This document shows positions 49,050-64,000 of a stretch of 64,000 nt of DNA, piece by piece. Source of the DNA: Janthinobacterium sp. GW456P (GTDB taxonomy: Bacteria; Pseudomonadota; Gammaproteobacteria; Burkholderiales; Burkholderiaceae_D); the NCBI RefSeq assembly GCF_002127655.1, contig NZ_NEHB01000002.1, forward strand, positions 1-64,000, read 5' to 3'. Position 1 is the stretch's first letter; every line of letters begins with the position of its first letter. Position numbers and translations under genes: made by a program. The notes under the pieces were generated by a model, which worked only from the letters and a program-made list of their open reading frames with translations, did no database searches and was not told the DNA's origin.

Positions 49050-50132
49050 CTAGACTCCTTCGATTATTTTTTTAAGCGAAGAATTATAGATTGCCGTTCT
49101 GTATTTATTTTCCGCAATACTTCTGTTTAATAAAGAAATAGCAAGTAAACCGCTGCCATCATCCAGGATTTCTTCGATTGCCATCTTGATGGAATTGCTG
49201 GATTGCGGGGCAATTTGATATCCATTGACTCCGCCAGTGAAAATATCCGGAATACCGCCACGGTCGGTAGTCATCACGACACAGCCTGCAGCATAGGCTT
49301 CCAGAATAGAAATCGGCTGCCCCTCAAACAGACTGGTCGGCAAGCAAAAAACATGAGCCGTACTCAAAAGCTCCTTCTTGTCGGCTGCACCGACAATTCC
49401 ATGATACTTTATTTCGGGAGCTGACGCCTTTTTCAGGAAAGCGTTTTTCTGCTCATCCGATTCAAAGGCACCGGCAAAATCTATCCGGACTCTCTGCCGC
49501 TGATCTTGCGTTAATTCCTGGAATGCCCCCAGCAATTCTTCGTATCCCTTGCCATCGATTAAATTACTAAGAAACAGTATTCTCAGCGGTTCTAGTGAGC
49601 AAAATTTATGCGCTATCTGTTCCTTGTGCAAGAACACATATTCTTCAGCGAAATTTGGCACGATGAATATTTTCTCAGGTGCAATAATTTCTTTGAATAT
49701 TTCCACATGGCTGTTACCCAGCACGATCACGGCACCCAGCTTTTTAATGAAAAATCTGTTTATTTTGTATAGCAAAGGGAATCTGTCAAAAATATGCTTT
49801 TTCAGGCTTCCGCCATGCAAATGAATAATCATTTTATTCAGATTACCGCTGCAAATCAGATAAATCAGCAAGTCCTTCAAGTTACCCGCAACAGATTCCG
49901 AAATGGTCAAATAAATTGCATCGACATTGTTTTTTTTATGCCATACCTTTTTCAATATCTTGAATATTTCCACAATTCGGCCTAAAGAATTGGCACCATG
50001 AGTCAATTCCTTCTTGCTCAAGTTAACCACTTCCAACTGATGTTCTTTTTCCAGGCCATCCAGCATGACCTTAACAGCCAAGGAGTGCCCCGTCATAGGA
50101 GGCGGCAAGGGGCCGATGAAGAGAATTTTCAT
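49050..50132 (-). CDS. Glycosyltransferase family 4
   Basis: A 360-residue GT-B enzyme. It begins MKILFIGPLPPPMTGHSLAV, has the acceptor-side helix region up to residue 160, and the donor-site block HVFCLPTSLFEGQPISILEA with the conserved Glu pair (E-x7-E), followed by AAGCVVMTTDRGGIPDIF. It would add one sugar to the lipid-linked repeat unit. The gene is the last of the minus-strand operon. Base composition is clearly lower in GC than the flanking chromosome, as in the next four genes. Confidence 0.9.
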   Translation of the reverse strand: MKILFIGPLPPPMTGHSLAVKVMLDGLEKEHQLEVVNLSKKELTHGANSLGRIVEIFKILKKVWHKKNNVDAIYLTISESVAGNLKDLLIYLICSGNLNKMIIHLHGGSLKKHIFDRFPLLYKINRFFIKKLGAVIVLGNSHVEIFKEIIAPEKIFIVPNFAEEYVFLHKEQIAHKFCSLEPLRILFLSNLIDGKGYEELLGAFQELTQDQRQRVRIDFAGAFESDEQKNAFLKKASAPEIKYHGIVGAADKKELLSTAHVFCLPTSLFEGQPISILEAYAAGCVVMTTDRGGIPDIFTGGVNGYQIAPQSSNSIKMAIEEILDDGSGLLAISLLNRSIAENKYRTAIYNSSLKKIIEGV

Positions 50133-50203
50133 AAATCAAACCAATATCAGATTAAATGTGCGGCAATCATGCCGCGAAAGGAAAAAGCAGGGAATCCTGT
50201 CAC

Positions 50204-51376
50204 TTATGCCAGAGCAGAAAATTCTTGCAATTTTTCTTTAAAATTCCTGATGGCGGTCTTTTTAGAAAAAATAAGCCAATAGCGTTGACTGCTGATTTCA
50301 CCCATGGCACTCCAGTCTTGCTGGCGCGCCATCATCTCTTCGAAGGCCAGTTTAATCGAAACATGCTCGTATGGATCAAATAAATAACCGTTGCTACCCT
50401 CCTCGACTCCCTCGAAATGATTACCGCATCGATTAGACACGAGCAAGGGAAGCTTCATGCACAAAGCCTCCACCAGGGTCAGCGGACTAGCATCGGAAAA
50501 AGAAGGCAACACGAATACATTGGCACTCTGGTACAGCGAGGCCAGCTTTTCGGTACTGCAATGCCCGAGCAGGGAAATATGCGCACCGAGGCTGCGGGAG
50601 GCAACAAACTGTTCGATCATGGCCTTATCCGGTCCATCTCCAGCAAGTAAAAACCGGCCTCGCCGAATATTTTCATCGCCCAGCGCTGAAAAGAAATTGA
50701 CAATACCCTTGACGGTCTCCGTCAACCGGACCGGCAGCAAGAATACCGGGAGCGGATTTTCTTGCCGCGCTGCGACTTCCGCGGCGGTAATCTGAAACTT
50801 GTCTTCTTCGATAGTATTAGGCAAAGGAAGATAGGCATGCACTCTTATCTGCCATTTTTCAAATGTCAATTCAGTCATTTTCCCGGAACTGATTTGTGCA
50901 CCGGTCGACGACTGGTAGACAAATTTTCGGAGAAAGCGTTTGAGTATATTATCGTTCGAGGCGCCGGTGGTAAGATAGTTCGCTTCGGACCAGAAATGCA
51001 GCTGCTGCTTGAAAAGACCCAGGCGCTTGAAAAATGCCAGCGCCAGTACATCGATATCGTTCCAGCTTCCGCCTATAATTACTTCAGTATTTTTTTCTTT
51101 GAATAATTTATACAGCAGGCGTGGGTTGATATGGAGATGATAACGCCCCATCATTTTATAATAGCCATTGTCGATATAATACGGATGCTTCAGCAAAGAT
51201 AGATCGACTTGCCAGCTTCGATCGCCTTCTATGCATCGCATGTAATACACCTCAAAATTCAATCCTTGCTCGTAAAGTTCGTTATATAACGCCGTACGAT
51301 AGGGTGTAGGTATATTGGTAAAGAAAATGTATTTATTCATTGTTCCAGCATCTTTTTCAGTATGCAATTGCAACAT
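50204..51376 (-). CDS. Glycosyltransferase family 4
   Basis: A 390-residue GT-B enzyme. The N-terminal domain starts near IFFTNIPTPYRTALYNELYE, and the donor domain carries VFLLPVRLTETVKGIVNFFS, FLLAGDGPDKAMIEQFV and NVFVLPSFSDASPLTLVEAL (E-x7-E type). I use the ATG at 51376 because it overlaps the stop of the preceding gene as TAATG and has AGGA seven bases before it; a Met twelve codons further in (51340) is a possible alternative. It acts in repeat-unit assembly. Confidence 0.88.
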   Translation of the reverse strand: MLQLHTEKDAGTMNKYIFFTNIPTPYRTALYNELYEQGLNFEVYYMRCIEGDRSWQVDLSLLKHPYYIDNGYYKMMGRYHLHINPRLLYKLFKEKNTEVIIGGSWNDIDVLALAFFKRLGLFKQQLHFWSEANYLTTGASNDNILKRFLRKFVYQSSTGAQISSGKMTELTFEKWQIRVHAYLPLPNTIEEDKFQITAAEVAARQENPLPVFLLPVRLTETVKGIVNFFSALGDENIRRGRFLLAGDGPDKAMIEQFVASRSLGAHISLLGHCSTEKLASLYQSANVFVLPSFSDASPLTLVEALCMKLPLLVSNRCGNHFEGVEEGSNGYLFDPYEHVSIKLAFEEMMARQQDWSAMGEISSQRYWLIFSKKTAIRNFKEKLQEFSALA

Positions 51377-52932
51377 TAAAAATCCTGCTTGATGTATTTT
51401 TTTTCAACCAAAAACTTGGGGAAAGTGATTTTTTTGAAAATCAAATGCTGGGCAAGGTTGAGCGTCCGGAAAAAAACGAGAACGGCAACATAGGGTAACA
51501 GCGACCCCCGGTAGGAATAGCAGCGGGGAACTGACAGGGTTTTGCCTCCAAAGTGCAGCATCTTAAAGTCGAAATCCACATATTTTGGAGGAATGCCGCG
51601 CTTTCCAAAAATATAGAGCGCATATTTCAACGCTCCCTGTCGCAAGCCAGGCGACAAGGTCGCAAAGAGCGCCGAATCCAGTTCGCTCAAGGTACGCGGG
51701 TAATACGCCACGTCCAGGTGGATATAAAAAGATCCGCCTAGCAGCACGACCGGCTTGCCCCAGTAAGCGGCTTCTACCCCCGTGGTGGAACCGAATACGA
51801 AGACTTTTTCACAGCTGTCGATCAAGGCATATGTAGAAACAGAAGAACTGGCGAGGATAACGGTAATGTTATCGAACTCGGAAAATATAGAAGCCAGGCC
51901 GGTATGATAATGAAACTTGATATGCTGCAAATTTGGATGAATGCGCAGATAAAAATGAATCGATGGATCCTGCGCTGCCTTGGCTAGCAGGTAGTGAATG
52001 CCCTCGATCTGATTCTCGAATAACTTATATTTGTCAAACGATTCGCCAACGCAGAAAAATTCATCTTCCGAAGAGTTGAAAATGACGAAATTTCGCTTAT
52101 CCGGATCCCAATTTTCGGGCAGCTCATTCTCCTTTTGCCCCGCGGTATACACCGTGTCGGATGCCATCTCGGCCTTGCGCCGACGCTCAAAAAAGCTCTT
52201 TGCCACAGTATTCTTGTCTTCTTTTTCGTTCCACTCGCTCCAGTTGTTTTCGATAATTTTCGTTCCATTATCAATATCATGAGGCAAGGCATCGAAAAAC
52301 TTTACCTTATGCTGTTTTTCCCGATCGGAAGCGAACGTGCATTCCAAGACCACCGTGCTGATGCCCCGAGCCTGGCTAACTTCCATCACCGGCCTGATTC
52401 CGCTGAAGCGTCCATTAAAAATGCAAACCTGATCGGGTGAGAAATCCTCAAGCATGCCAATGGTGGCTTCGACCAGACGGGCCGAAGCGCGCAACGCGTC
52501 GTCAAAAAACATGCTGTTTTCCTGATTAAATTCAGGTTCCAGATTCCGCGTCATCGACACATAGGAAGACACCACACCCAAGCCGATATTGGCCTCTTGA
52601 TGGCAGATGGTTTTCACCTCGGCAATCGAGTCGTAATCGAAGCGCAGCGCATCCACCCTCCGCACAGCTTCCGCACTGAGAAATGATGACAGTTTCTTGT
52701 GCTTGAAATTCGGATGATCAATTTTACCAACCAGCAAATTCGCAGAAAACATGCACTCCGCGCAGCGGATAGCAGATTGCTCGGCATTCGAATCGCAGGG
52801 CTTGATTTCACCGCTACACGTCACAAAAAGAACTTGATTCGAAGGTTCTTGAAGATATTCCATGGCTTCATCCAGCAAAACCGGCATGCTGTTGTTATCC
52901 AGGGGATAGGGGCTGTAAATAAGAATATTCAT
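51376..52932 (-). CDS. Capsule-synthesis-like (KpsS/KpsC-related) protein
   Basis: A 518-residue cytoplasmic protein. The C-terminal half has the block ILASSSVSTYALIDSCEKVF followed by FGSTTGVEAAYWGKPVVLLG and HLDVAYYPRTLSEL, which resembles the surface-carbohydrate proteins of the Capsule_synth group (KpsS, KpsC, LipB). Those enzymes transfer beta-Kdo onto lipid carriers. The start at 52932 (MNILIYSPYPLDN) is preferred; a 10-residue extension is unsupported. In a Wzx/Wzy operon, without other group-2 capsule genes, it more likely acts as a glycosyltransferase on the repeat unit. Confidence 0.72.
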   Translation of the reverse strand: MNILIYSPYPLDNNSMPVLLDEAMEYLQEPSNQVLFVTCSGEIKPCDSNAEQSAIRCAECMFSANLLVGKIDHPNFKHKKLSSFLSAEAVRRVDALRFDYDSIAEVKTICHQEANIGLGVVSSYVSMTRNLEPEFNQENSMFFDDALRASARLVEATIGMLEDFSPDQVCIFNGRFSGIRPVMEVSQARGISTVVLECTFASDREKQHKVKFFDALPHDIDNGTKIIENNWSEWNEKEDKNTVAKSFFERRRKAEMASDTVYTAGQKENELPENWDPDKRNFVIFNSSEDEFFCVGESFDKYKLFENQIEGIHYLLAKAAQDPSIHFYLRIHPNLQHIKFHYHTGLASIFSEFDNITVILASSSVSTYALIDSCEKVFVFGSTTGVEAAYWGKPVVLLGGSFYIHLDVAYYPRTLSELDSALFATLSPGLRQGALKYALYIFGKRGIPPKYVDFDFKMLHFGGKTLSVPRCYSYRGSLLPYVAVLVFFRTLNLAQHLIFKKITFPKFLVEKKYIKQDF

Positions 52933-53032
52933 GGTTATTATCTGGTTATTTCTCTGGTGCAATCTTGAAGTTATGACTGCCTATAAGCATAAAAATCAAG
53001 GAATGAAAACTTTTTCACGCCTGCAAAACTTC

Positions 53033-54295
53033 CTATTTAAGTATCTTTTTGTGCCCAAATCCATTCAAATAGCCACAAATCAAAAAAGTATAAACAATTA
53101 GAAGATTGTAATATACAGTCTTCATTTCATAATTAAATATTCCCATTGCCGGCAGCAAAAACAATGCCGCGACTGCCATCAATTTCGCAAGCGGCAAGCC
53201 ATTTTTCCCTGGCCGCAGCCAAAGAACAAAAGAAGAATAAATCGCCGCAAATATAAATGTTCCTACATATCCGAAATCGAACAATATATTTGCAGTGATG
53301 CCATTAAATCTATCGTAATATGCACCCCAAAAAACATACAGCCTCGTCTCAATTTCACCTATCGGATAATTGACCAAACCAAGCTTATCCGCAATCAAAA
53401 TAGGAAAAGGAAACGATAACTGTCCGTTTAAAGATTCAAATTGGTAGGAATTAATGACAATACTGCCGTTTCTATACCATTGACATCCATAATCGAACAA
53501 GCTGAATATAATTGGATTAGTGATATAGACATTCGAATCGAGAATGTCGTTATAGCCAATTTCATTTTCAAACCGGTTTGCCGTCACAAAAAAGAAAACA
53601 GTCAAAGCACTTGCCGCCAGGAGTCCAAGCGAAATCTTAATTGTATTTTTTGTTTTTCGGCTACATTTATTGTAAAAAAATGGAAGGTAAGCGCCGTACA
53701 GAAAAACAAAAATAATAAACCCTGAACGACTGAATATGGTTAATCCATGCAATACCACATTCAACGAAAACAACAGGCAAAGATAAGACATTTTCTTATT
53801 GCCAGTCATTAGATAATAAAAATGAAGTGGCATTAAAAAGTAGGCAGTCGGATGCAGATACAGCGCTAGCAAATATAAGGTATTATTGATCGGCAAGGCT
53901 TTTATAAAATCGCCGCTCTCTCCGCCATTTTTGAATGCGGAATAATCCACAATGGATGAAAAACTGTAAAAAATACTAATAGAGAATACGACGAAAATAA
54001 TAATATTAATAGACAGCAATACTAATGTCAGCGTCCTCAGGCGTTGACGATCCGACATCATGATTTTTACACTATAAGGCAAGCAATTCCATGGCAGGAT
54101 AAAAAATGCCAAAATCAATGCCAAGAAAATAAAATTCCAGATCTTTTCTTCAGTATCAATCTTATAATCATAACCAATCGCAACCGCACCGATTAAGGAA
54201 GATATATAAATGAAGAACAGGAAAACAGCCGGAGAAGCCTTACGCCTGAAAGTGAAGGCAAAATAAATAAAAACCAGGTAACATAAAAATAACAT
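53033..54295 (-). CDS. wzy: O-antigen polymerase (Wzy-like)
   Basis: A 420-residue membrane protein with about ten to eleven hydrophobic segments and a large loop (residues 240-330, from NRFENEIGYNDILDSNVYIT to YDRFNGITANILFDFG). This is the usual Wzy shape; sequence conservation in the family is very low, so topology and position next to wzx are the main support. Wzy joins repeat units in the periplasm. The AT-rich composition is typical of O-antigen polymerases. ATG 54295 has AGG at about seven bases. Confidence 0.8.
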   Translation of the reverse strand: MLFLCYLVFIYFAFTFRRKASPAVFLFFIYISSLIGAVAIGYDYKIDTEEKIWNFIFLALILAFFILPWNCLPYSVKIMMSDRQRLRTLTLVLLSINIIIFVVFSISIFYSFSSIVDYSAFKNGGESGDFIKALPINNTLYLLALYLHPTAYFLMPLHFYYLMTGNKKMSYLCLLFSLNVVLHGLTIFSRSGFIIFVFLYGAYLPFFYNKCSRKTKNTIKISLGLLAASALTVFFFVTANRFENEIGYNDILDSNVYITNPIIFSLFDYGCQWYRNGSIVINSYQFESLNGQLSFPFPILIADKLGLVNYPIGEIETRLYVFWGAYYDRFNGITANILFDFGYVGTFIFAAIYSSFVLWLRPGKNGLPLAKLMAVAALFLLPAMGIFNYEMKTVYYNLLIVYTFLICGYLNGFGHKKILK

Positions 54296-54397
54296 AAATA
54301 ACCTAAAGGGTGTCAGGCAGATTTCTGCGCTTCGGCAGCCGCTTGCGGACGGACAATGGGTGGCTAAGGCGGTCCGAGACTACATACAGGCAACAGC

Positions 54398-55720
54398 CTA
54401 TTTGGGCGGTAGTGGCTGCAATTTTTCAACATGCTTCAAGCCCCATGGCAAATCATAAAGCTTATTGGCAAATATGAAAACTGCAACAAATGTCAGAACA
54501 GAAACAAGCAAGCTTGAATATGCCGCCCCCATGATGCCGATATGCTGTACTAGAAGAAAGGTCAGCGCCATCTGCAGTACGGAAGACGAAAAAGTGATAA
54601 TTCCCAGCAGCTTGGTTTTTCTTTTATAAAAAATATAGCCCGACATGATGGAATACATACCGTCAAAAAATAAGGTAGCCATCGTCATCGGCAAAAACAC
54701 CATCGATTCCTGGTATGCAGCTGGGAAAAACAATGGTATTAATAGCTTTAGTAAAAAATAGCCACTGAGTGCTACCAAACTCAAAGCAGCAGAAAATAAA
54801 TAGGTAATGCGTACCAGTTTTCGCTTTAATCTTTTTTTTTCACTCGGCTCAGATTGCTCAATGGAAAGTAAATCCTTGTATAAATGCGGAGCATAGGCAT
54901 TGAAAAAAGCTCCGGTAAACACGCCGATCACGGCGGAAAAAGTCAGCGCCAAAGCGTAAATACCGTTTGCTGCGATACTTATATAATTGGTTATTATTAT
55001 CTTGTCGATGCCGGATTTAAACCAGAAAGATAGGGTATGCGGCAGCAGCGGCAAACCGAAAGAGAATGCGCTGCGAACCTCTTTCATATCAATACTGGAA
55101 AATATATAAGAATTTTTTTTCAGATGCCACATTATCAACAGTGTGACGACCACACCCGAAACGATCATGCTGAGTGCCCGACCTTGCCAGTTCCATTGCA
55201 GGAAAACGACAAATAGTATTGCCAGCCCTCCCGTCAGCAGGGATTGCAATACTTGTGCGACATTAAAGGTATATACCCGCTCCTGGATGCGCAACAGCGA
55301 CGTGTACAGAGTATAAATACAAGTCGACACGGCTGTAATGATAGCAAACACCTGCCACAGCAAAGTGATTCCCAGATATTCGCTGATAGGAAAGGAAAAC
55401 AGGCCTACTATCAGCAAACACGCGACGCCTAAAAACAGAATTAAATAAATCAGATTTGAAAGATAGCCAGCCACATCATCTTTCAATCCATGATAATTAA
55501 TTGTCAGTGCGGTATAGGTATTCATGCCGCAAATTGCCGTAAATACTTGTACTGCAACGCTGAAATTTGTCAGTGTGCCAAAATCCGAGGGTGTCAAGTA
55601 TTTCGCTACAATTGGCAACAGGAGAAAAGGAACCGCCTTGCTGAGCGTGTCACCGAGTGTATAGATCAGTGTGGACCTAAGAAAACTATGGCGTAATATT
55701 TTTTTTATAAAACCAGGCAT
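54398..55720 (-). CDS. wzx: Repeat-unit flippase (Wzx-like, MATE/MOP superfamily)
   Basis: A 440-residue membrane protein with about twelve helices. It opens LRSTLIYTLGDTLSKAVPFL, characteristic of polysaccharide flippases, and has FGLPLLPHTLSFWFKSGIDK in the middle. Wzx moves lipid-linked repeat units across the inner membrane. I start it at ATG 55720, seven bases after GAAG; the TTG five codons upstream is less likely. It sits between the nucleotidyltransferase and Wzy. Confidence 0.9.
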   Translation of the reverse strand: MPGFIKKILRHSFLRSTLIYTLGDTLSKAVPFLLLPIVAKYLTPSDFGTLTNFSVAVQVFTAICGMNTYTALTINYHGLKDDVAGYLSNLIYLILFLGVACLLIVGLFSFPISEYLGITLLWQVFAIITAVSTCIYTLYTSLLRIQERVYTFNVAQVLQSLLTGGLAILFVVFLQWNWQGRALSMIVSGVVVTLLIMWHLKKNSYIFSSIDMKEVRSAFSFGLPLLPHTLSFWFKSGIDKIIITNYISIAANGIYALALTFSAVIGVFTGAFFNAYAPHLYKDLLSIEQSEPSEKKRLKRKLVRITYLFSAALSLVALSGYFLLKLLIPLFFPAAYQESMVFLPMTMATLFFDGMYSIMSGYIFYKRKTKLLGIITFSSSVLQMALTFLLVQHIGIMGAAYSSLLVSVLTFVAVFIFANKLYDLPWGLKHVEKLQPLPPK

Positions 55721-56015
55721 TTCTTCGCAACTCAAGTTGATCAGTCCGGCTTCAAAGCGGACCGGGATGTAAATCGGCTGAATCCTATTTTCAATCTGTA
55801 TTCCGATTTTTTAGCAGAAGACGGTTTTCAATTCCGGTTCGCTTCAGGCCACAGTAATGCCCAGCTTGAAATCTTAATTCAACAACATTCACCTCGATGT
55901 ACCGGCAAGCACAAATGTAAAAAAATAGCACTGGCCGCCTCGCCGGATACCATGCGGAGTTAGCTGCCATCAAAATGCCAGAGAATTTTGAGTGAACGCC
56001 GTTCACAATCATCCG
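55721..56015. other. Non-coding gap inside the glycan operon
   Basis: About 295 bases between the nucleotidyltransferase stop and wzx. A 73-codon minus frame (55791-56012) spans part of it but matches nothing I know and has no Shine-Dalgarno. A small palindrome GTGAAC-GCC-GTTCAC lies at 55992-56006, right after the nucleotidyltransferase stop. Composition is mixed, so this may be the remains of lost sequence. Confidence 0.5.
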
Positions 56016-57059: not shown

Positions 57060-57090
57060 AATATATAGTCGGATTAAAAGTGCCGGATTC

Positions 57091-57545
57091 TTACCGGCTC
57101 GTCTCGACGCGCGGACTGATATCGGCAAGATCGTAGAAAGATTTTTTCAAAATATGCTCCAGCGGATATTCACCGAGCACTTGAACGATCTTTTGGCTGG
57201 CGCCACCATTGCCATGCAGATTGGTCATGGTTGCCAGCCCGGACTGGAATTCTGTAGAGTACGGATGCTGCAGAGCCGTGCTTATCGATACGGCATCGGG
57301 CTCGCAATCAATCACACTGTCCGTCATTAAACGGCCGCGCTGGCGGTCGCCGATATTGATCGTGCCGATGCCCACGCTTGGCGCTTCGGCAATCCCGTTT
57401 GAGGAATTTTCCACTACGCCATCGAGCATCGAAGACAAGAGGAAACTCCCCGTATCCGCATTCGGCATCGCGAAAATCAAACGGCAATCAGTCACGTCGT
57501 CCAAGGCGTTCAATAGTTCTGGCATTTGCTGAGGCGACGATGCGC
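57091..57545 (-). pseudogene. Remnant of a resident legG/neuC (C-terminal part)
   Basis: The frame retains the tail of a hydrolysing 2-epimerase: CRLIFAMPNADTGSFLLSSM, then ENSSNGIAEAPSVGIGTINI and GDRQRGRLMTDSVIDCEPDA. Alignment by eye with the intact copy at 57753-58862 shows that roughly the first 200 residues are missing. About 27 residues are also missing between SSMLDG and VVENSS, where the intact protein has the block ending CMKHCEF. Composition is GC-rich, unlike the intact copy. It is therefore a decayed resident gene, displaced by the AT-rich one. Confidence 0.85.
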
Positions 57546-57632
57546 TCTCAAGCGTGGCAGGATGAATTGTTTGGCCAGTTCAAGGTCGCCATGATGATTC
57601 ACGCCAGCTTCTGCGATGATAAGGGTTTTCAT
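57510..57632 (-). pseudogene. Remnant of a resident legI/neuB (N-terminal part)
   Basis: From ATG 57632 the frame reads MKTLIIAEAGVNHHGDLELA then KQFI, the exact start of a nonulosonate synthase, and is then lost after 24 residues (57561). What follows in this frame, up to a stop at 57510, is unrelated because the DNA has already switched to the legG remnant in another frame. The deletion that joined the two removed most of legI and the first part of legG. Confidence 0.85.
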
Positions 57633-57658
57633 GTATTTCTTCAACGATCTTTGTTTAA

Positions 57659-57751
57659 TTATTTGGCCAGAACGCCGATGTAAACCGAACTGGCTATGCA
57701 ATCCTGCAAGACCGCCGACCCGGAACCAATCACGGTATCGGCGCCTAAAAC
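57659..57751 (-). pseudogene. Remnant of a resident acyltransferase (LegH/PglD/NeuD type, last 30 residues)
   Basis: One base after the neuC stop, a GC-rich frame reads GADTVIGSGSAVLQDCIASS and VYIGVLAK before TAA. This is the C-terminus of a left-handed beta-helix (hexapeptide) acyltransferase, whose ends usually read like V-GxGS-VVL-DVP-NSVYVG-PAK. It is followed after 26 bases by the start of the legI remnant, the normal legH-legI order. LegH acetylates the 4-amino group before epimerisation. No intact copy is in the window. Confidence 0.75.
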
Positions 57752-57752
57752 A

Positions 57753-58862
57753 CTAAAGTATCTTTTTAATAGCATTTACTATTCTAGATGCGGTATTGCC
57801 GTCACCATAAATGTTGCATTTTTCCGGCAATGGTGTTGCTTCAATTTTTCTCACCGTATTAAGTATATCTTCTTTGGTAACCGGCGTTGTATAGATGTTA
57901 GGTGTTTCAATCCTTCCCTTTTGCCTATCACCAAGATTTATAACAAATTTCGGGAAAAATGATGCTTCAACAAAACCGCTTGAGGTGTTTCCCAACATAA
58001 ATTCACAATGTTTCATGCAGGTCAGGTATCCTAAAGTGCCAAAGGATTCAATTCCTACTGCATTGACATTAGAACTTATAAAATCCTTCAGTTTCAGGCG
58101 GATCATATTACCCATGGTATCAGTATTAGGCATTGTAATGATCAGCTGGTAAGCTTTCAGTTGCGTTAGAGCAGCGATAAGTTCATCTGTATAGGTTTCG
58201 TTCTTCTCAAATGAAACAGTTTCCGGATGAAAAGTGATCAGAATACTCTTTTTAGTCAGATCAATATTGAATTTTTTCTTAAACTCTTCGACAGAAAGAA
58301 AATCAACATTCTTCAGATTATCTATACTTAATGCACCTACGTTAAAGACCGCGTCTTTATGCTCATCTCCGACAATCTTAACGATTTGGTCTTTATACTG
58401 CTCTGTTGATGCAAAATGGAGTTTAGACATTAGCGTCAGGCTATTCCTAAAGATGTTATCAATAGCCCCTAAAGTTATTTCCCCACCCGAAATATGTGCA
58501 ACCGGAATGTTAAATGGCACAGCAGAAGCTACTGCCGCAAACATTTCATAACGATCTCCCAAACAAATGATTAATTTGTAGTTTTCCAGACTCCAGATTG
58601 ATGAAAATTTCATCATCGTCAAACCCATAGAATCAGAAATTGACTCTGGAGATTCACCAAGAACCAAGGCGTCAATTTTGTACTTGACCCTAAAACCATC
58701 CTCTTCAATCCTGCCAACAGAATTACCATAAATCAAGGAATTATGATTGCCAAAAGCTATAATATCCAATTCAAAGATTTTCTGTTTATGAATTTCTTTA
58801 ATCAAAGGATAATATATACTGTAATCTGCTCGTGAACTTGTAAGTAAGGCTATTTTAATCAT
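57753..58862 (-). CDS. UDP/GDP-sugar 2-epimerase, hydrolysing (NeuC/LegG-like)
   Basis: A 369-residue GT-B-fold enzyme that epimerises and releases the nucleotide from an activated amino sugar, giving a ManNAc-type hexose for the synthase. It has MIKIALLTSSRADYSIYYPL at the start, the catalytic block LIICLGDRYEMFAAVASA with HISGGEITLGAIDN, and the C-terminal FMLGNTSSGFVEASFF plus NLGDRQKGRIETPN. Start at 58862 is ten bases after neuB. Whether it uses UDP- or GDP-sugar is unknown, though the PtmE-like gene favours GDP. AT-rich codon use sets it apart from the resident genes. Confidence 0.92.
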   Translation of the reverse strand: MIKIALLTSSRADYSIYYPLIKEIHKQKIFELDIIAFGNHNSLIYGNSVGRIEEDGFRVKYKIDALVLGESPESISDSMGLTMMKFSSIWSLENYKLIICLGDRYEMFAAVASAVPFNIPVAHISGGEITLGAIDNIFRNSLTLMSKLHFASTEQYKDQIVKIVGDEHKDAVFNVGALSIDNLKNVDFLSVEEFKKKFNIDLTKKSILITFHPETVSFEKNETYTDELIAALTQLKAYQLIITMPNTDTMGNMIRLKLKDFISSNVNAVGIESFGTLGYLTCMKHCEFMLGNTSSGFVEASFFPKFVINLGDRQKGRIETPNIYTTPVTKEDILNTVRKIEATPLPEKCNIYGDGNTASRIVNAIKKIL

Positions 58863-58872
58863 GGCTTTCAAT

Positions 58873-59892
58873 TCAAACCAAATCGTCAATCGAAAGTTTA
58901 TGATCTTTCGCTACATCTTTATTTAATTTCTTATTTAAAACATTTTGAATATACATAGGAGAAATTCCATCTCCCGGCCTTTTCATAATCAAATCTTTCT
59001 CAGTTATGATATGCCCTTTCGTTAAGCCATCCACTATATGAATGCTTCTTCTAGCAATAACTATATTCTTCGTTTCAGATTCAGTAGGCAACTTTTCAGC
59101 TGAACCCATAGCCTTTTCAATGTTTCTGATAGAATTAACCATTTCTTTCAATTCATCAGGTTCCAGAGATGCCAAATGGTCAGGACCATCCATTGAACGG
59201 TCTAAAGTGAAGTGTTTTTCAATCACAGTCGCCCCTATTGCCACAGCGGCAACCGGCACTTCAATACCAAGGGTATGGTCAGAATATCCAATTTTTACCC
59301 CAAACACTTCACCGATAGTTATCATCGCTTTAAGATTAACATCTGTCATCTTTGTAGGATAGTCGGTGTTGCAATGTAAAACGGTGATGTTTTCTTTTAA
59401 AGTTCCTTCAGCAATCAAAACTTTTAGCGCTTCACCTATCTCGTCAAGCGTTGACATTCCTGTAGATAAAATTACATTCGTCTTCATTCTTCCTATTGTC
59501 TGAAGATATGGAAGGTTAGTAATTTCTCCCGAAGGTATTTTGAATATATCAAGACCAAGATTATACAAATAATCAATTGAAACATGATCGAAAGGCGTTG
59601 ATAAAAATTTTATCCCCACGCTGTTTGAATAATCCAGTAACTCTTTATAAGCTTCAAGAGGAAGATGAATTTTTTTAGCCATATCCAGCTGGCTTTCAGA
59701 AGCTATACCGGTATTATCAATTTGATAAACTGCTTTTTCCGCCTGCTCAGTCATTACGAGCTCCGGCACTGCTGTTTGAAATTTAACAATATCAGCACCA
59801 GCCTCCTTGGCAACGTCGATTAATTTTTTTGCAATATTAATGTCCGCATTATGGTTTACACCTGCCTCAGCAATGATTAGAACTTTATTCAT
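58873..59892 (-). CDS. Nonulosonic acid synthase (NeuB/LegI-like)
   Basis: A 339-residue enzyme that condenses phosphoenolpyruvate with a six-carbon amino sugar to give a nine-carbon nonulosonic acid. The barrel domain opens MNKVLIIAEAGVNHNADINI, has GADIVKFQTAVPELVMTE, FKIPSGEITNLPYLQ and VIEKHFTLDRSMDGPDHLAS (metal and substrate residues). The C-terminal antifreeze-like SAF domain runs from about residue 275 (IVIARRSIHIVDGLTKGHII). It overlaps the HAD gene by four bases. Sialic versus legionaminic specificity cannot be settled by eye. Confidence 0.93.
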   Translation of the reverse strand: MNKVLIIAEAGVNHNADINIAKKLIDVAKEAGADIVKFQTAVPELVMTEQAEKAVYQIDNTGIASESQLDMAKKIHLPLEAYKELLDYSNSVGIKFLSTPFDHVSIDYLYNLGLDIFKIPSGEITNLPYLQTIGRMKTNVILSTGMSTLDEIGEALKVLIAEGTLKENITVLHCNTDYPTKMTDVNLKAMITIGEVFGVKIGYSDHTLGIEVPVAAVAIGATVIEKHFTLDRSMDGPDHLASLEPDELKEMVNSIRNIEKAMGSAEKLPTESETKNIVIARRSIHIVDGLTKGHIITEKDLIMKRPGDGISPMYIQNVLNKKLNKDVAKDHKLSIDDLV

Positions 59893-60209
59893 TTTTTCTT
59901 TCTTTTTTCGTCTAGAATTTTATTAACATTATCCCATCCATTACAGGTAATAGCACGATCATCGATCCACACATCTCCAATCGGCTTTCCTAACATCAGC
60001 TGATGGTATTTAAAGCCATACCTTGACAACCAGTCCACAGTCATCTCATATTCCATCCAGGTACGCGCAGAATAAATGATTATTGTATGTCCTTCGTCAT
60101 ATAAATTATTTACAGATTCAACTGCATTATCCAACGGCTTAGCCATTGATCTGCTATATGTTTTTTCTTCGGTACAAATTGTACCATCCATGTCTATTAT
60201 TATTTGCAT
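59889..60209 (-). CDS. Small HAD-superfamily protein
   Basis: A 106-residue HAD protein with all four motifs: DMDGTICTEEKTY (motif I), IIIYSART (motif II), LGKPIG (the Lys) and VWIDDRAI (acidic pair). It lacks the cap domain of larger HAD phosphatases. Similar short HADs accompany glycan genes, where they may dephosphorylate a sugar or a nonulosonate 9-phosphate; the true substrate is not known. It overlaps both neighbours (ATP-grasp by ten bases, neuB by four), so the four genes are tightly coupled. Confidence 0.82.
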   Translation of the reverse strand: MQIIIDMDGTICTEEKTYSRSMAKPLDNAVESVNNLYDEGHTIIIYSARTWMEYEMTVDWLSRYGFKYHQLMLGKPIGDVWIDDRAITCNGWDNVNKILDEKRKKK

Positions 60210-61144
60210 ATTTTATAATTTTCTGAAAAACGTCGCATCATTAAGAAACTATCGATCCAATTTCCATCATATGAATTCTTTATTTTATAGAAATCATTTA
60301 AAAGATATTTTGGGGAATTTGCACCGGCAAAAATTGAATTTAGTACAGCGCCACCAAACCTTGGATTAATTTCCATAAAGTAAAGTTCTTTAGTTGCCGA
60401 ATCTTCAATCAACTGAAGCGTAAGAGGGCCAACTAATTTTGTTTTCTCAATAATTTCCCTGCTAAAATTTATTAATCTTTCATCTTTAAGCGTGATAGAT
60501 TTTATAGATTCGCCGCCCTGAGTTTCCAATCGTATCCTTGGAACAATTGAAACTATTTCCTTATCCTGGACAGAGACATAAACATCTACACTGTATTCTT
60601 TACCTTTAACAAATTTCTGAACCAGATAATTTTCTTTATTTGTCAGGTTATCAAAATCTGCAGGTGATTCAAGTATTAAGATACCTTTGGATGCAGACCC
60701 ATGTATCGGCTTTGCTATCAATGGGTAATTATTAGTGTCAGAAGGTATATTTATACTGTTTTCTATGCACCACTCATTAGCAAGGCGCTTGTTGAAAAAA
60801 ACTTCACATATACCTTCGTCCGAAACCGGCATGAAAACGTCTTTATCCTCCACGAGCTTTTTCAGCCTGGCTGATACGATAGTAGCGTAATCCAAAAAAG
60901 GCAGTACAATATTAATCTTTTTTGTTTTAATAGTTTCAAGCAAATGATCGTATAAGTTCTTATCACTCCATCGCAATCCGATAACAATCTCTCCAACCAA
61001 TGAGATTGGAACATTAATATCTAACTCGTATGAAAAGATATTTACATTTAGACCTCTTTCCTTACCTTCATCAATAAATTTTTCGGCAAGAGAAACGCGT
61101 TTGGCGCCTCCGAGGAAAAGTATATTTATATCTTTTTTTTGCAT
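60200..61144 (-). CDS. ATP-grasp domain protein
   Basis: A 314-residue protein that opens like a Rossmann-type pre-ATP-grasp domain (INILFLGGAKRVSLAEKFID). It then has an ATP-grasp fold: NNYPLIAKPIHGSASKGILI (ATP-binding Lys and flexible loop), YLVQKFVKGKEYSVDVYVSV, and YFMEINPRFGGAVLNSIFAG (metal-binding Glu and Asn). ATP-grasp enzymes join a carboxylate to an amine or thiol through an acyl phosphate. Placed between an aminotransferase relic and neuB, it occupies the step where LegH would act. It may therefore acylate the new amino group, for instance with an amino acid. That is inference. Confidence 0.87.
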   Translation of the reverse strand: MQKKDINILFLGGAKRVSLAEKFIDEGKERGLNVNIFSYELDINVPISLVGEIVIGLRWSDKNLYDHLLETIKTKKINIVLPFLDYATIVSARLKKLVEDKDVFMPVSDEGICEVFFNKRLANEWCIENSINIPSDTNNYPLIAKPIHGSASKGILILESPADFDNLTNKENYLVQKFVKGKEYSVDVYVSVQDKEIVSIVPRIRLETQGGESIKSITLKDERLINFSREIIEKTKLVGPLTLQLIEDSATKELYFMEINPRFGGAVLNSIFAGANSPKYLLNDFYKIKNSYDGNWIDSFLMMRRFSENYKICK

Positions 61145-61191
61145 GACAAGTTATTCAATAATGTTGCTTGATGTTTTCACAATTCGCTTTT

Positions 61192-61340
61192 CTAAGAACA
61201 ATGCATTGGCCTGTTCTTCCTTCTGACAAGGTGCATATTTAGCTCTTTTACAAGCTTAATATCATTTGCCACTAAAGCACCGCCTCCGCCTGAAGTAACT
61301 ATTTTATTTCCATCAAAAAAAATCACTCCAGGCCAACATA
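61192..61340 (-). pseudogene. Broken aminotransferase fragment (DegT/LegC-like) of foreign origin
   Basis: In AT-rich DNA between legC and the ATP-grasp gene, one frame reads PGVIFFDGNKIVTSGGGGAL, VANDIKLVKELNMHLVRRK and then reaches a stop at 61192. This is the PLP-lysine region of a sugar aminotransferase (resident LegC: LSFNGNKITTTGGGG). The N-terminal half and the C-terminal half are absent. It is the scar of the foreign legC-like gene, replaced by or recombined with the resident GC-rich legC. Confidence 0.82.
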
Positions 61341-61352
61341 CAATGAGAATAT

Positions 61353-62525: not shown

Positions 62526-63523
62526 ACGTTGTAAATATCGGCTTTGTAACTGGCCAAATTGGCGGGATCGCTGAACCAGGCAACGGTTTCTTGCAGACCG
62601 CGGATGAAACCGTCGCGGCCGCCGTATTGCGGTTGCCAGCCGAGCAAGTCACGCGCCTTGCCGTTGGCGGCCCACAACCGCTCGACCTCGCTCTTTTCCG
62701 GACGCAGACGCTGGTCATCGGTGACAACTGAAATTTCCACGCCCATTGCCTCGGCGATCGCGTGCGCGGTGTCGCCGATCGAAATCTCGAAATTACTGCC
62801 CAAATTGATCACTTCGCCTATGCCGCGCTCGGACTCCATGGCGGCGATGAAACCGGCAACGGTGTCGGCGACATAACTGAAATCGCGCGTCGGGTGCACC
62901 GCGCCAAGTTTGATCTCGCGCATGCCTGCCGCGATCTGGGTAATAATTGTCGGTATCACCGCGCGGGCCGACTGGCGCGGGCCGTAGGTATTAAACGGAC
63001 GCAACAGAGTAACCGGGGTACCAAAGGAGGCGTGGAAGGACATCGCGATCTGGTCCGCGCCGATCTTGCTTGCAGAATATGGCGATTGGCCCTGCAAAGG
63101 GTGCTCTTCGGTGATCGGCACGAACCGCGCCGTACCATACACTTCACTGGTCGAGGTTTGCACCACCTTGCCGATGCCCAGGTCGCGCGCGGCCTGGACG
63201 ATGTTCAGCGTACCCTTGATATTCGTATCGACATAAGTATCGGGCGAATGGTAGGAATATGGAATTGCAATCAGCGCAGCCAGATGCAATACGGCATCGC
63301 ATCCCTTCATCGCGGTACGCACGCCGTTCGGGTCGCGCACATCGCCGGCAAACACTTCAAACTTGCCCTTGACGTCGGCCGAACAGCGGTCCAGCCATCC
63401 CCAGGAATTGAATGAATTGTACAAAACAAAGGCACGCACATCATAGCCCGCGCGTACCAGAGCCTCAGTCAGGTGGGAGCCGATAAAACCATCGGCGCCA
63501 GTAATTAATATCTTTTTTTTCAT
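62522..63523 (-). CDS. legB: NAD-dependent sugar 4,6-dehydratase, LegB type
   Basis: A 333-residue extended SDR enzyme that makes a 4-keto-6-deoxy sugar from activated GlcNAc, the first step toward legionaminic acid. NAD-binding opens KKKILITGADGFIGSHLTEA. The block RAFVLYNSFNSWGWLDRCSA is typical of LegB proteins. SEVYGTARF and the YSASKIGADQIA Tyr-x3-Lys pair supply catalysis, and the C-terminus ends at ASYKADIYNV. It overlaps legF by four bases and legC by four bases. Confidence 0.94.
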   Translation of the reverse strand: MKKKILITGADGFIGSHLTEALVRAGYDVRAFVLYNSFNSWGWLDRCSADVKGKFEVFAGDVRDPNGVRTAMKGCDAVLHLAALIAIPYSYHSPDTYVDTNIKGTLNIVQAARDLGIGKVVQTSTSEVYGTARFVPITEEHPLQGQSPYSASKIGADQIAMSFHASFGTPVTLLRPFNTYGPRQSARAVIPTIITQIAAGMREIKLGAVHPTRDFSYVADTVAGFIAAMESERGIGEVINLGSNFEISIGDTAHAIAEAMGVEISVVTDDQRLRPEKSEVERLWAANGKARDLLGWQPQYGGRDGFIRGLQETVAWFSDPANLASYKADIYNV

Positions 63524-64000
63524 ATTTTTTCGTTCAACAATAATTCGGCGAATTTCCAGTCCAGGGGGGTATCGATATCGACCGAACGGTCCGCTGGCAT
63601 GACATAAGCCAGCGTTTCCTCGGCAAGCATGGTGCGGCTGCTCCGCAACCAGTCGGCATTGGCGAAGTATAAAGCACCGTTCAGCGTCAATACAGTCGGC
63701 AGATCCTGGCGTCGAGTGTGCGATTGGGAAGCCAACAACTTTTCCAGTTGCAGCGTTGCCGTCATTCGGTACATCCAGTCAGGATGTGCATCGGGTTCGC
63801 TGACTGACACCACCGAAACGGCTTCCCGCTCGCGCGCCAAAGCAACGCAGGCATCGATGTCGGCACTGCTGCGCAAGGGAGATGTCGGCTGCAGCAGCAG
63901 CACCGCATCATAGTCCGGCAATTGCTGCAGCGCGTGGAGCACAGGCTCCACGCCAGGAGTCTCGTCACGGGCCAATTCGGCCGGACGCAGAAACGGTACT
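63520..64000 (-). CDS. legF: CMP-nonulosonate cytidylyltransferase (LegF/NeuA type), 5' end outside the window
   Basis: The last 159 residues of the gene are in view; its start is beyond 64,000 because the frame is open to the edge. It has DYDAVLLLQPTSPLRSSADI, VVSVSEPDAHPDWMYRMTA and a late LTLNGALYFANADWL, VMPADRSVDIDTPLDWKFAE, all standard for NeuA/LegF cytidylyltransferases. It activates the finished nonulosonic acid as the CMP-sugar. The stop overlaps the legB start as ATGA. Confidence 0.92.
   Translation of the reverse strand, partial: VPFLRPAELARDETPGVEPVLHALQQLPDYDAVLLLQPTSPLRSSADIDACVALAREREAVSVVSVSEPDAHPDWMYRMTATLQLEKLLASQSHTRRQDLPTVLTLNGALYFANADWLRSSRTMLAEETLAYVMPADRSVDIDTPLDWKFAELLLNEKI

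Follow-up and report, generated by a model that had tools for sequence, protein, structure and literature searches.

How does a bacterium come to own a sugar operon whose middle genes differ sharply in base composition from those on either side, with pieces of broken genes lying at both joints, and what would such an arrangement do to the sugar? The question is raised by a nonulosonic acid locus of Janthinobacterium sp. GW456P, situated towards the end of the first 64,000 nucleotides of contig NZ_NEHB01000002.1 (GCF_002127655.1), a stretch that is referred to below, at its full length, as the window. In this study, we provide strong support for a gene swap, in which a foreign cassette carrying legC-like, ATP-grasp, HAD, neuB and neuC genes took over from the resident legH, legI and legG, and we argue that the acyl group borne by the nitrogen at C-7 was probably swapped as well. 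The legionaminic pathway, as set out in the accessible text of PMC6388019 and PMC6137143, comprises LegB, LegC, N-4 acetylation by LegH, LegG, LegI and LegF. Loci and genomes used for comparison are cited by our own numbers (L and G); the genome collections hold one genome per species.

An AT-rich block in a GC-richer operon

The locus lies on a 369 kb contig within a 6.27 Mb genome, for which completeness is given as 100% and contamination as 0.11%. Among plasmid-collection records, the DnaE of this genome is most similar to that of Neisseria (52%), and flanking DNA matches Variovorax and Cupriavidus over 4% of the query. Read along the minus strand, the order is legF, legB, legC, a gene scrap, the ATP-grasp gene, the HAD gene, neuB, neuC, three further scraps, ptmE, a flippase gene and further sugar genes. 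The eight genes that remain, apart from the scraps, are as follows.

63520..63999, minus strand: legF (CMP-nonulosonate synthetase), resident; 5' part outside the window; 224 aa in L007
62522..63523, minus strand: legB (4,6-dehydratase), resident, intact; TIGR04180, 525 bits (cut-off 475); 78% identity to L040
61353..62525, minus strand: legC (aminotransferase), resident, full length; TIGR04181, 532 bits (cut-off 420); 69% to L040
60200..61144, minus strand: ATP-grasp ligase, cassette, intact; PF15632, 62.6 bits, and PF02655, 60.9 bits; 61% to L083
59889..60209, minus strand: small HAD-type phosphatase-like protein of 106 aa, cassette, intact; 69% to L083; overlaps the ATP-grasp gene
58873..59892, minus strand: neuB (nonulosonate synthase), cassette, intact; TIGR03569, 460 bits (cut-off 400); 76% to L083
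57753..58889, minus strand: neuC (hydrolysing 2-epimerase), cassette, intact; TIGR03568, 368 bits (cut-off 236); 66% to L083
56016..57128, minus strand: ptmE-like gene (two CBS stretches and a nucleotidyltransferase), resident, intact; PF00571, PF00483; 64% to L040

A preliminary description of this DNA, made from the sequence by a model, had placed an AT-rich neuC, neuB, HAD and ATP-grasp block inside a GC-rich leg operon, and composition bears this out. The block of 3.4 kb has a GC content of 33.8-36.6% and a third-position GC content (GC3) of 29.5-33.6%, against 57.3-59.3% and 65.6-69.3% in the flanking legC, legB and the window part of legF; ptmE has 53.0% GC and the control gene dnaE 62.1%. 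Both GC and codon usage, the check that the description had proposed, break sharply at the two cassette borders, near 57.75 kb and 61.35 kb. The cassette genes are closer in codon use to Bacteroidota reference genes than to the host dnaE (mean log ratio -0.78 to -0.97), with values of +0.17 to +0.34 for legC, legB and legF and of -0.12 to +0.04 for ptmE and the right-hand scraps; the reference genes came from L083 and L086 and were picked once the donor type had been found.

All eight genes are full length and without internal stops, and the seven compared with intact relatives share 61-78% identity with them; the resident legC is 5 codons shorter than that of L040, and the true start of ptmE, judged from L040, likely lies near 57062. 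As for a pathway of legionaminic type, LegB, LegC, LegG/NeuC and LegI/NeuB reach their NCBIfam cut-offs, and of the N-acetyltransferase LegH the operon holds a 30-codon tail only. The window part of legF scores 78.6 bits against TIGR03584 (cut-off 205.7), and a home-made profile gives 275 bits for the full length of 224 aa. The cassette neuB is the sole NeuB-family match in the genome at E 1e-10, and the solved structure nearest to the cassette NeuC by sequence is the GDP/UDP-diNAcBac 2-epimerase 5xvs. The ATP-grasp protein belongs to its superfamily by Pfam domains above the gathering score, and its best match to PRK12767 (carbamoyl-phosphate-synthase-like) is 161.6 bits, short of the NCBIfam cut-off of 390. 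The small HAD protein matches HAD-type families, all under the NCBIfam cut-offs.

Gene scraps at both borders

Four scraps were identified by curated profiles, and three of them also by local alignment to intact relatives, with 100 shuffles each.

61207..61329, minus strand: donor-type legC' scrap, AT-rich, from mid-gene; TIGR04181 positions 188-218, E 8e-8; GC3 32%
57662..57751, minus strand: legH tail, resident; TIGR03570 positions 174-202 of 202, E 8e-4; GC 55.6%
57558..57632, minus strand: legI head, resident, first 24 codons; TIGR03569 positions 1-22, E 1.4e-6; GC 46.7%
57091..57552, minus strand: legG tail, resident, 5' half lost; TIGR03568 positions 281-365 of 365, E 2e-25; GC 53.7%

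The legC' scrap beats all 100 shuffles in alignments to LegC of L083, L086 and L040, and covers what we take to be the surroundings of the PLP-lysine motif. The preliminary description had seen in it the broken end of an AT-rich aminotransferase gene; the LegC profile agrees on the aminotransferase and its AT-richness is plain, but the scrap comes from the middle of the gene rather than being just its broken end. What follows it looks, by eye, like a C-terminal piece.

On the other side of the cassette, the legI head and the legG tail each outscore all 100 shuffles against intact relatives (the latter in alignment to L040/L038). The legH tail does not rise above shuffles in alignments to LegH of L038, L040 and L044 (best 40, shuffle maximum 54), so its identity rests on the profile match and on its place. 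The naming of these three pieces in the preliminary description is thus upheld by the curated profiles, weakly for legH, as is the homology of all four scraps to legH, legI, legG and an aminotransferase; that those on this side are all GC-rich holds relative to the cassette, but not relative to legB and legC (legG 53.7%, legH 55.6% and legI 46.7%). Compared with L040, most of legH is gone; a second gap starts near codon 25 of legI and reaches to about codon 208 of legG, and inside the legG scrap roughly 28 codons have been deleted in frame.

Donor operons in Bacteroidota

The ATP-grasp gene has no match in any of the 39 other genomes of the genus (E 1e-20), nor in the 391 other genomes of the family sample and the 368 others of the class sample (E 1e-30; the samples overlap). 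A scan of genome contigs of 84,980 species with a seven-row alignment, which detects only sequences bearing its one peptide pattern, found 351 relatives, and the 80 best were retained; an earlier scan with a two-row alignment gave 241 stretches, none a relative, the patterns probably having fallen on variable positions.

The best seven of the 80 kept loci (L083-L089) all carry Bacteroidota record titles and have 45-61% ATP-grasp identity. The HAD gene adjoins in all seven, LegC stands directly before the pair in six and neuB after it in six, the exceptions being L084, with no LegC in reach, and L085, with no neuB in reach. Cytophaga aurantiaca (L086) carries a complete legB-legC-ATPgrasp-HAD-neuB-neuC-ptmE-legF operon, and in L083, L088, L089 and L213 legC is likewise followed by these four cassette-type genes, L083 and L089 having one additional gene in front of neuB. 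The closest donor relative is L083 (ATP-grasp 61%, HAD 69%, NeuB 76%, NeuC 66%). In this locus, a 252-aa protein encoded between HAD and neuB (L083:11237-11995) matches nothing in NCBIfam or Pfam at E 0.001, and a protein that resembles it by eye stands before neuB at L231:2767-3522.

Other collections were searched as well. Phage records gave no ATP-grasp match at E 1e-15, and a scan of viral contigs gave none with the single ATP-grasp protein and two NeuB loci, at 41%, with the single NeuB protein; 326 of 5426 E. coli genomes matched, the ten listed matches sharing only 84 bases of neuB.

The resident parent and its chromosomal site

In a search of the family with the ptmE-like protein, 21 of 385 genomes matched at E 1e-60; nine regions from eight of them were read, together with G003 and G015. 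An uninterrupted legB-legC-legH-legI-legG-ptmE operon was found in L038 and L040, in the same family as the window genome. L039 has this order with one gene, membrane-protein-like, inserted between legI and legG, and L044 reads legF-legB-legC-legH-legI-...-legG-ptmE; in seven other LegC loci of the family (L009, L010, L041-L043, L045 and L046) LegH stands elsewhere in the operon. Both parents of the hybrid thus exist intact elsewhere, as a foreign cassette taking over from legH-legI-legG would have it, and no donor or recipient was found close enough to place the crossover points. L039 and L040 both belong to G370 (listed with 9% contamination), which therefore has two leg operons, each followed by genes resembling, by eye, amidotransferase, HisF and HisH.

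LegB is present in four of 40 genomes of the genus (E 1e-80). G003 carries a complete leg operon between window-like flanks (dnaE and a gene which we take to be trhO on one side, the C12:67 kb flank on the other), and G015 carries one with a single shared flank seen. In both the order is legB-legC-legG-legI-legH-ptmE-legF and LegC identity is 54-58%, so these genus sisters were ruled out as the direct ancestor of the resident operon. The chromosomal spot is one that nonulosonate operons have used more than once in the genus.

Phylogeny of the cassette and of its host operon

Quick trees were built from 65 NeuB and 58 NeuC rows; in both, the cassette protein is sister to L083 (SH-aLRT 95 for NeuB and 97 for NeuC), and L086 comes next (95 and 96). 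In the NeuB tree the pair-bearing rows cluster (none of 500 shuffles as low). When the legG tail is added to the NeuC tree, it falls in a starred clade apart from the cassette NeuC; the L083 sister is kept (97) and the set with L086 is no longer starred. For the resident LegC, PtmE and legG tail, the trees each give a starred set that mixes both phyla (12, 14 and 11 rows), with L038, L039 and L040 among the nearest rows, as well as loci from the Bacteroidota sample such as L216, L217, L220, L224 and L234. The LegB tree has no starred set for the window.

The pair occupies the slot of LegH

LegC loci were surveyed in two samples, genes after LegC being called by home-made profiles at 55 bits, and Pfam confirmed examples of LegH and of the formyltransferase (FMT). 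The sample of the Bacteroidota phylum, that of G763, comprised 375 genomes with 39 best matches above the LegC cut-off, all of which were read: the slot held LegH in 20, FMT in five, ATP-grasp with HAD in two, LegH with FMT in two and none of these in ten, one of the two pair-bearing loci being that of G763, which was chosen for having the pair. In the sample of the window's own phylum, Pseudomonadota, 24 of 378 genomes passed the cut-off, its own included, and the pair is absent from all 23 others.

Besides the window, seven pair-bearing LegC loci are at hand (L083, L085, L086, L087, L088, L089 and L213), and none has LegH or FMT, against 40 of 47 comparison loci (28 of 31 plus 12 of 16; Fisher p 2e-5). 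The count took in genes of the same strand from -4 to +7 kb, and comparison loci were those with NeuB and without the pair, which leaves out six and seven surveyed loci lacking NeuB. The pair stands directly after LegC and before NeuB, with no LegH or FMT, in the window and in L083, L086, L087, L088, L089 and L213; in donor operons it fills the slot that LegH fills elsewhere. FMT occupies exactly the LegH position after LegC in L232, L235, L236 and L241, which makes this look like a general slot for exchangeable N-acylation genes.

No LegH-family gene above cut-off was found in the window genome, where five partial NeuD-family matches score 50.0 to 58.9 bits (cut-off 160.8), and neither LegH nor FMT is matched in the 19 kb around the operon, even at E 10. 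With the pair in the LegH slot and no LegH-family gene above cut-off in the genome, the exchange of genes probably also exchanged the acyl group that ends at C-7, the N-4 group of the precursor being expected, from the chemistry, to become the C-7 group of the product.

Proposed history and rival explanations

We consider it likely that the operon is a hybrid made by insertion and erosion, in which the pair replaces the N-acylation step of LegH. The starting point would be a resident legF-legB-legC-legH-legI-legG-ptmE operon, into which a Bacteroidota fragment legC'-ATPgrasp-HAD-neuB-neuC was putatively inserted at the legC/legH joint; redundant copies would then have eroded, the donor legC' on the left and the resident legH, legI and legG on the right. 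The resident LegB and LegC would make an NDP-4-amino-4,6-dideoxy sugar, whose amino group the foreign ATP-grasp ligase, together with the HAD protein, would N-acylate in place of LegH; the foreign NeuC and NeuB would build the nine-carbon acid, and the resident PtmE and LegF would supply the nucleotide steps. Because every step but that of LegH has an intact gene and the pair stands in the place of LegH, an ATP-dependent acyl-amine ligation is expected where other operons use transfer from acetyl-CoA, the HAD protein, as a speculation, removing a phosphate that arrives with the acyl donor. In this account the two parent architectures, the scraps, the NeuB and NeuC phylogeny, the loss of LegH and the place of the pair in the LegH slot are observed; the action of the pair on the nitrogen at C-7 of the product, the acyl group and the order of insertion and deletions are inferred.

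Several observations weigh against this history or parts of it. The Fisher test ignores kinship; on the LegC tree the loci amount to four independent pairs, none contrary (p 0.125), too few for a sign test to reach significance. Seven of the 47 comparison loci have neither LegH nor FMT, thus the absence of LegH is no proof of a substitute. In a Paceibacterota contig (L090), legF, neuB, ATP-grasp and HAD genes stand side by side in this order, the pair following NeuB and not LegC, with aminotransferases further on. Near the pair, two of the seven loci encode a hexapeptide protein, found at lower scores: one of 180 aa between HAD and neuB (L089:11242-11781) and one of 179 aa behind ptmE (L085:12464-13000). 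Their best profiles are of O-acetyltransferase type, all below cut-off; the NeuD profile covers them partly (49.3 and 66.8 bits; cut-off 160.8), and Pfam did not find in them the PglD N-terminal domain that is present in LegH examples. Genes of this kind were looked for at the pair-bearing loci only. We read both proteins as putative O-acetyltransferases, which could N-acetylate instead, and they may be either a second decoration or competitors of the pair for N-acylation; a strict absence of any acetyltransferase beside the pair was accordingly rejected as a claim, which makes the functional reading slightly less likely. A NeuD-family gene above cut-off also occurs elsewhere in four of the seven Bacteroidota genomes that carry L083-L089 (G760, G761, G763 and G766), about 19 kb from the ATP-grasp gene and by coordinates on the same contig in G766 (L089), and about 77 kb away on the operon's contig in G763, which has a second on another contig. 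On the side of origin, wzx and wzy next to the operon also score below zero in codon use (-0.49 and -0.67), so that the measure marks AT-rich genes and not one donor. Taken together, the pair-bearing loci do not cluster in the NeuC tree (109 of 500 shuffles as low), and other pair-bearing operons have therefore probably exchanged neuC. Finally, the mixed-phylum clades of the resident genes and the 53% GC of ptmE make it probable that the recipient operon was acquired too; this operon type has itself moved between phyla, and "resident" here means older, not native.

Among the rivals, a somewhat unlikely one, in our estimate, has the pair decorating another position, C-7 being left as a free amine or acylated by an unlinked acetyltransferase. 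The hexapeptide proteins near two of the seven pairs, the NeuD-family genes in four of the seven genomes and the seven of 47 LegC-NeuB loci that lack the pair, LegH and FMT alike would all suit it, and the five sub-cut-off NeuD matches of the Janthinobacterium genome may be other hexapeptide acetyltransferases; but the pair lies between LegC and NeuB in six of the seven other loci, none of which has LegH or FMT, and its near subfamily also stands beside DegT aminotransferases outside nonulosonate operons. The preliminary description had spoken of allelic exchange at the level of a module. The swap of a module stands, but the three resident scraps share one side of the cassette and keep their former order, which is better explained by an insertion where legC meets legH, with deletions coming separately afterwards, than by one clean exchange. 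A one-step homologous replacement of legH-legI-legG by double crossover, the scraps being its ragged borders, is unlikely, even though the parent operons are colinear (legC-X-synthase-epimerase-ptmE), which would favour recombination, and the resident genes to its two sides, legC and ptmE, are both intact: such an event would not be expected to leave legH, legI and legG scraps in the old order with inner deletions, and it does not predict a separate legC' scrap beside an intact legC.

Two further possibilities concern the integrity of the locus. Several border deletions are visible, as they would be in a dying relic with neither parent pathway working; this seems very unlikely, in view of eight genes that are full length without stops, seven of them at 61-78% identity, and of breakage confined to redundant copies. 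That the assembly joins two organisms is hardly credible: apart from the abrupt change of composition nothing was seen to suggest it, and the block sits inside a 369 kb contig of a genome with 0.11% contamination, with gene scraps at both joints.

The ATP-grasp-HAD pair outside nonulosonate operons

Beyond the operons considered so far, the pair occurs on plasmid 2 of Rickettsiales bacterium Ac37b (L012, 9001-10255), where it follows gmd, aminotransferase, acyltransferase and methyltransferase genes; the plasmid, of 19 kb, also carries an ABC exporter, and the bacterium comes from the tick Amblyomma cajennense. In IMG/VR contigs classed as viral (L049-L056 and L066), the pair lies near DegT aminotransferases, two of these loci also having a LegB-like dehydratase match. 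Among 34 ATP-grasp relatives on viral contigs, 15 have both a small HAD gene (within 1 kb) and a DegT/LegC-like gene (within 4 kb), five have HAD only, eight DegT only and six neither. In genomes, the top eight loci have HAD in all eight and a DegT gene in seven, and the other 72 kept loci have no small HAD gene and a DegT gene in 45. The HAD gene thus belongs to the near ATP-grasp subfamily, and the link to amino-sugar synthesis extends past nonulosonic acids.

One may go further and suppose, with considerable doubt, that the pair serves generally to N-acylate 4-amino sugars as a module, in which the ligase would couple a phosphorylated carboxylic acid, for example 3-phosphoglycerate, to the amino group that the aminotransferase encoded next to it has installed, and the HAD protein would dephosphorylate the product, giving an N-glyceroyl or similar group. 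If so, the pair would be an interchangeable alternative to LegH and to the formyltransferase. It would also be a candidate for the enzyme that adds glyceroyl at C-7 in Tannerella, where the accessible text of PMC6120980 places an N-glyceroyl group at C-7 of pseudaminic acid.

Genes beside the operon, at 49050-55735 of the window, have a GC content of 36-48% that differs from gene to gene, and the whole surface-sugar locus is thus a mosaic; the flippase among them is supported by Pfam, and the glycosyltransferases and polymerase were named by eye.

Comparison with known systems

Exchange of surface-sugar genes is usually inferred from operons that differ across strains. Here the seam itself is visible, showing which pieces were brought in, made redundant and lost, and what is new is the combination of two intact parents with a likely exchange of the N-acylation step. 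A pair known from Bacteroidota, a Rickettsiales plasmid and viral contigs, and little described, thereby becomes a likely stand-in for LegH and a testable N-acylation module. It is also a candidate for a nonulosonic acid acyl group whose gene is given as elusive, as of 2018, in the part of PMC6120980 available. We found no description of the pair as a LegH substitute in the literature searched, most subscription journals lying outside it; another ATP-grasp gene sits in a flagellin cluster in the available part of PMC3765264, and an ATP-grasp gene is tabulated in that of PMC6321876.

The legB-legC-legH-legI-legG-ptmE operons, which serve GDP/NDP-linked precursors, resemble the resident half of the locus in gene order, in homology of legB, legC and ptmE and in the scraps; unlike them, the Janthinobacterium operon has LegH, LegI and LegG as scraps, and foreign genes would carry their steps. 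The Bacteroidota pair operons (L083, L086, L087, L088, L089 and L213) share the ATP-grasp, HAD, neuB and mostly neuC order, but there the pair belongs to an operon of its own lineage, whereas here the middle part only was imported. Alternative N-acyl groups on the same sugar have precedents: alanyl-bearing legionaminic acid in Vibrio vulnificus CMCP6 (accessible text of PMC7371886), and N-formylated legionaminic acid in Halorubrum sp. PV6, with a possible N-formyltransferase gene in the cluster, although in the part of PMC6137143 available the formyl group is at N-5, LegH is listed and the enzyme assignment is tentative. Modular transfer in glycosylation islands is likewise already known. The Enterobacteriaceae flagellin islands, in the accessible text of PMC4875605, have low G+C content, several separate transfers and exchangeable acetyl- and formyltransferases, yet a scar-marked swap within one sugar pathway was not found in that text, and it is such a swap that the Janthinobacterium locus preserves.

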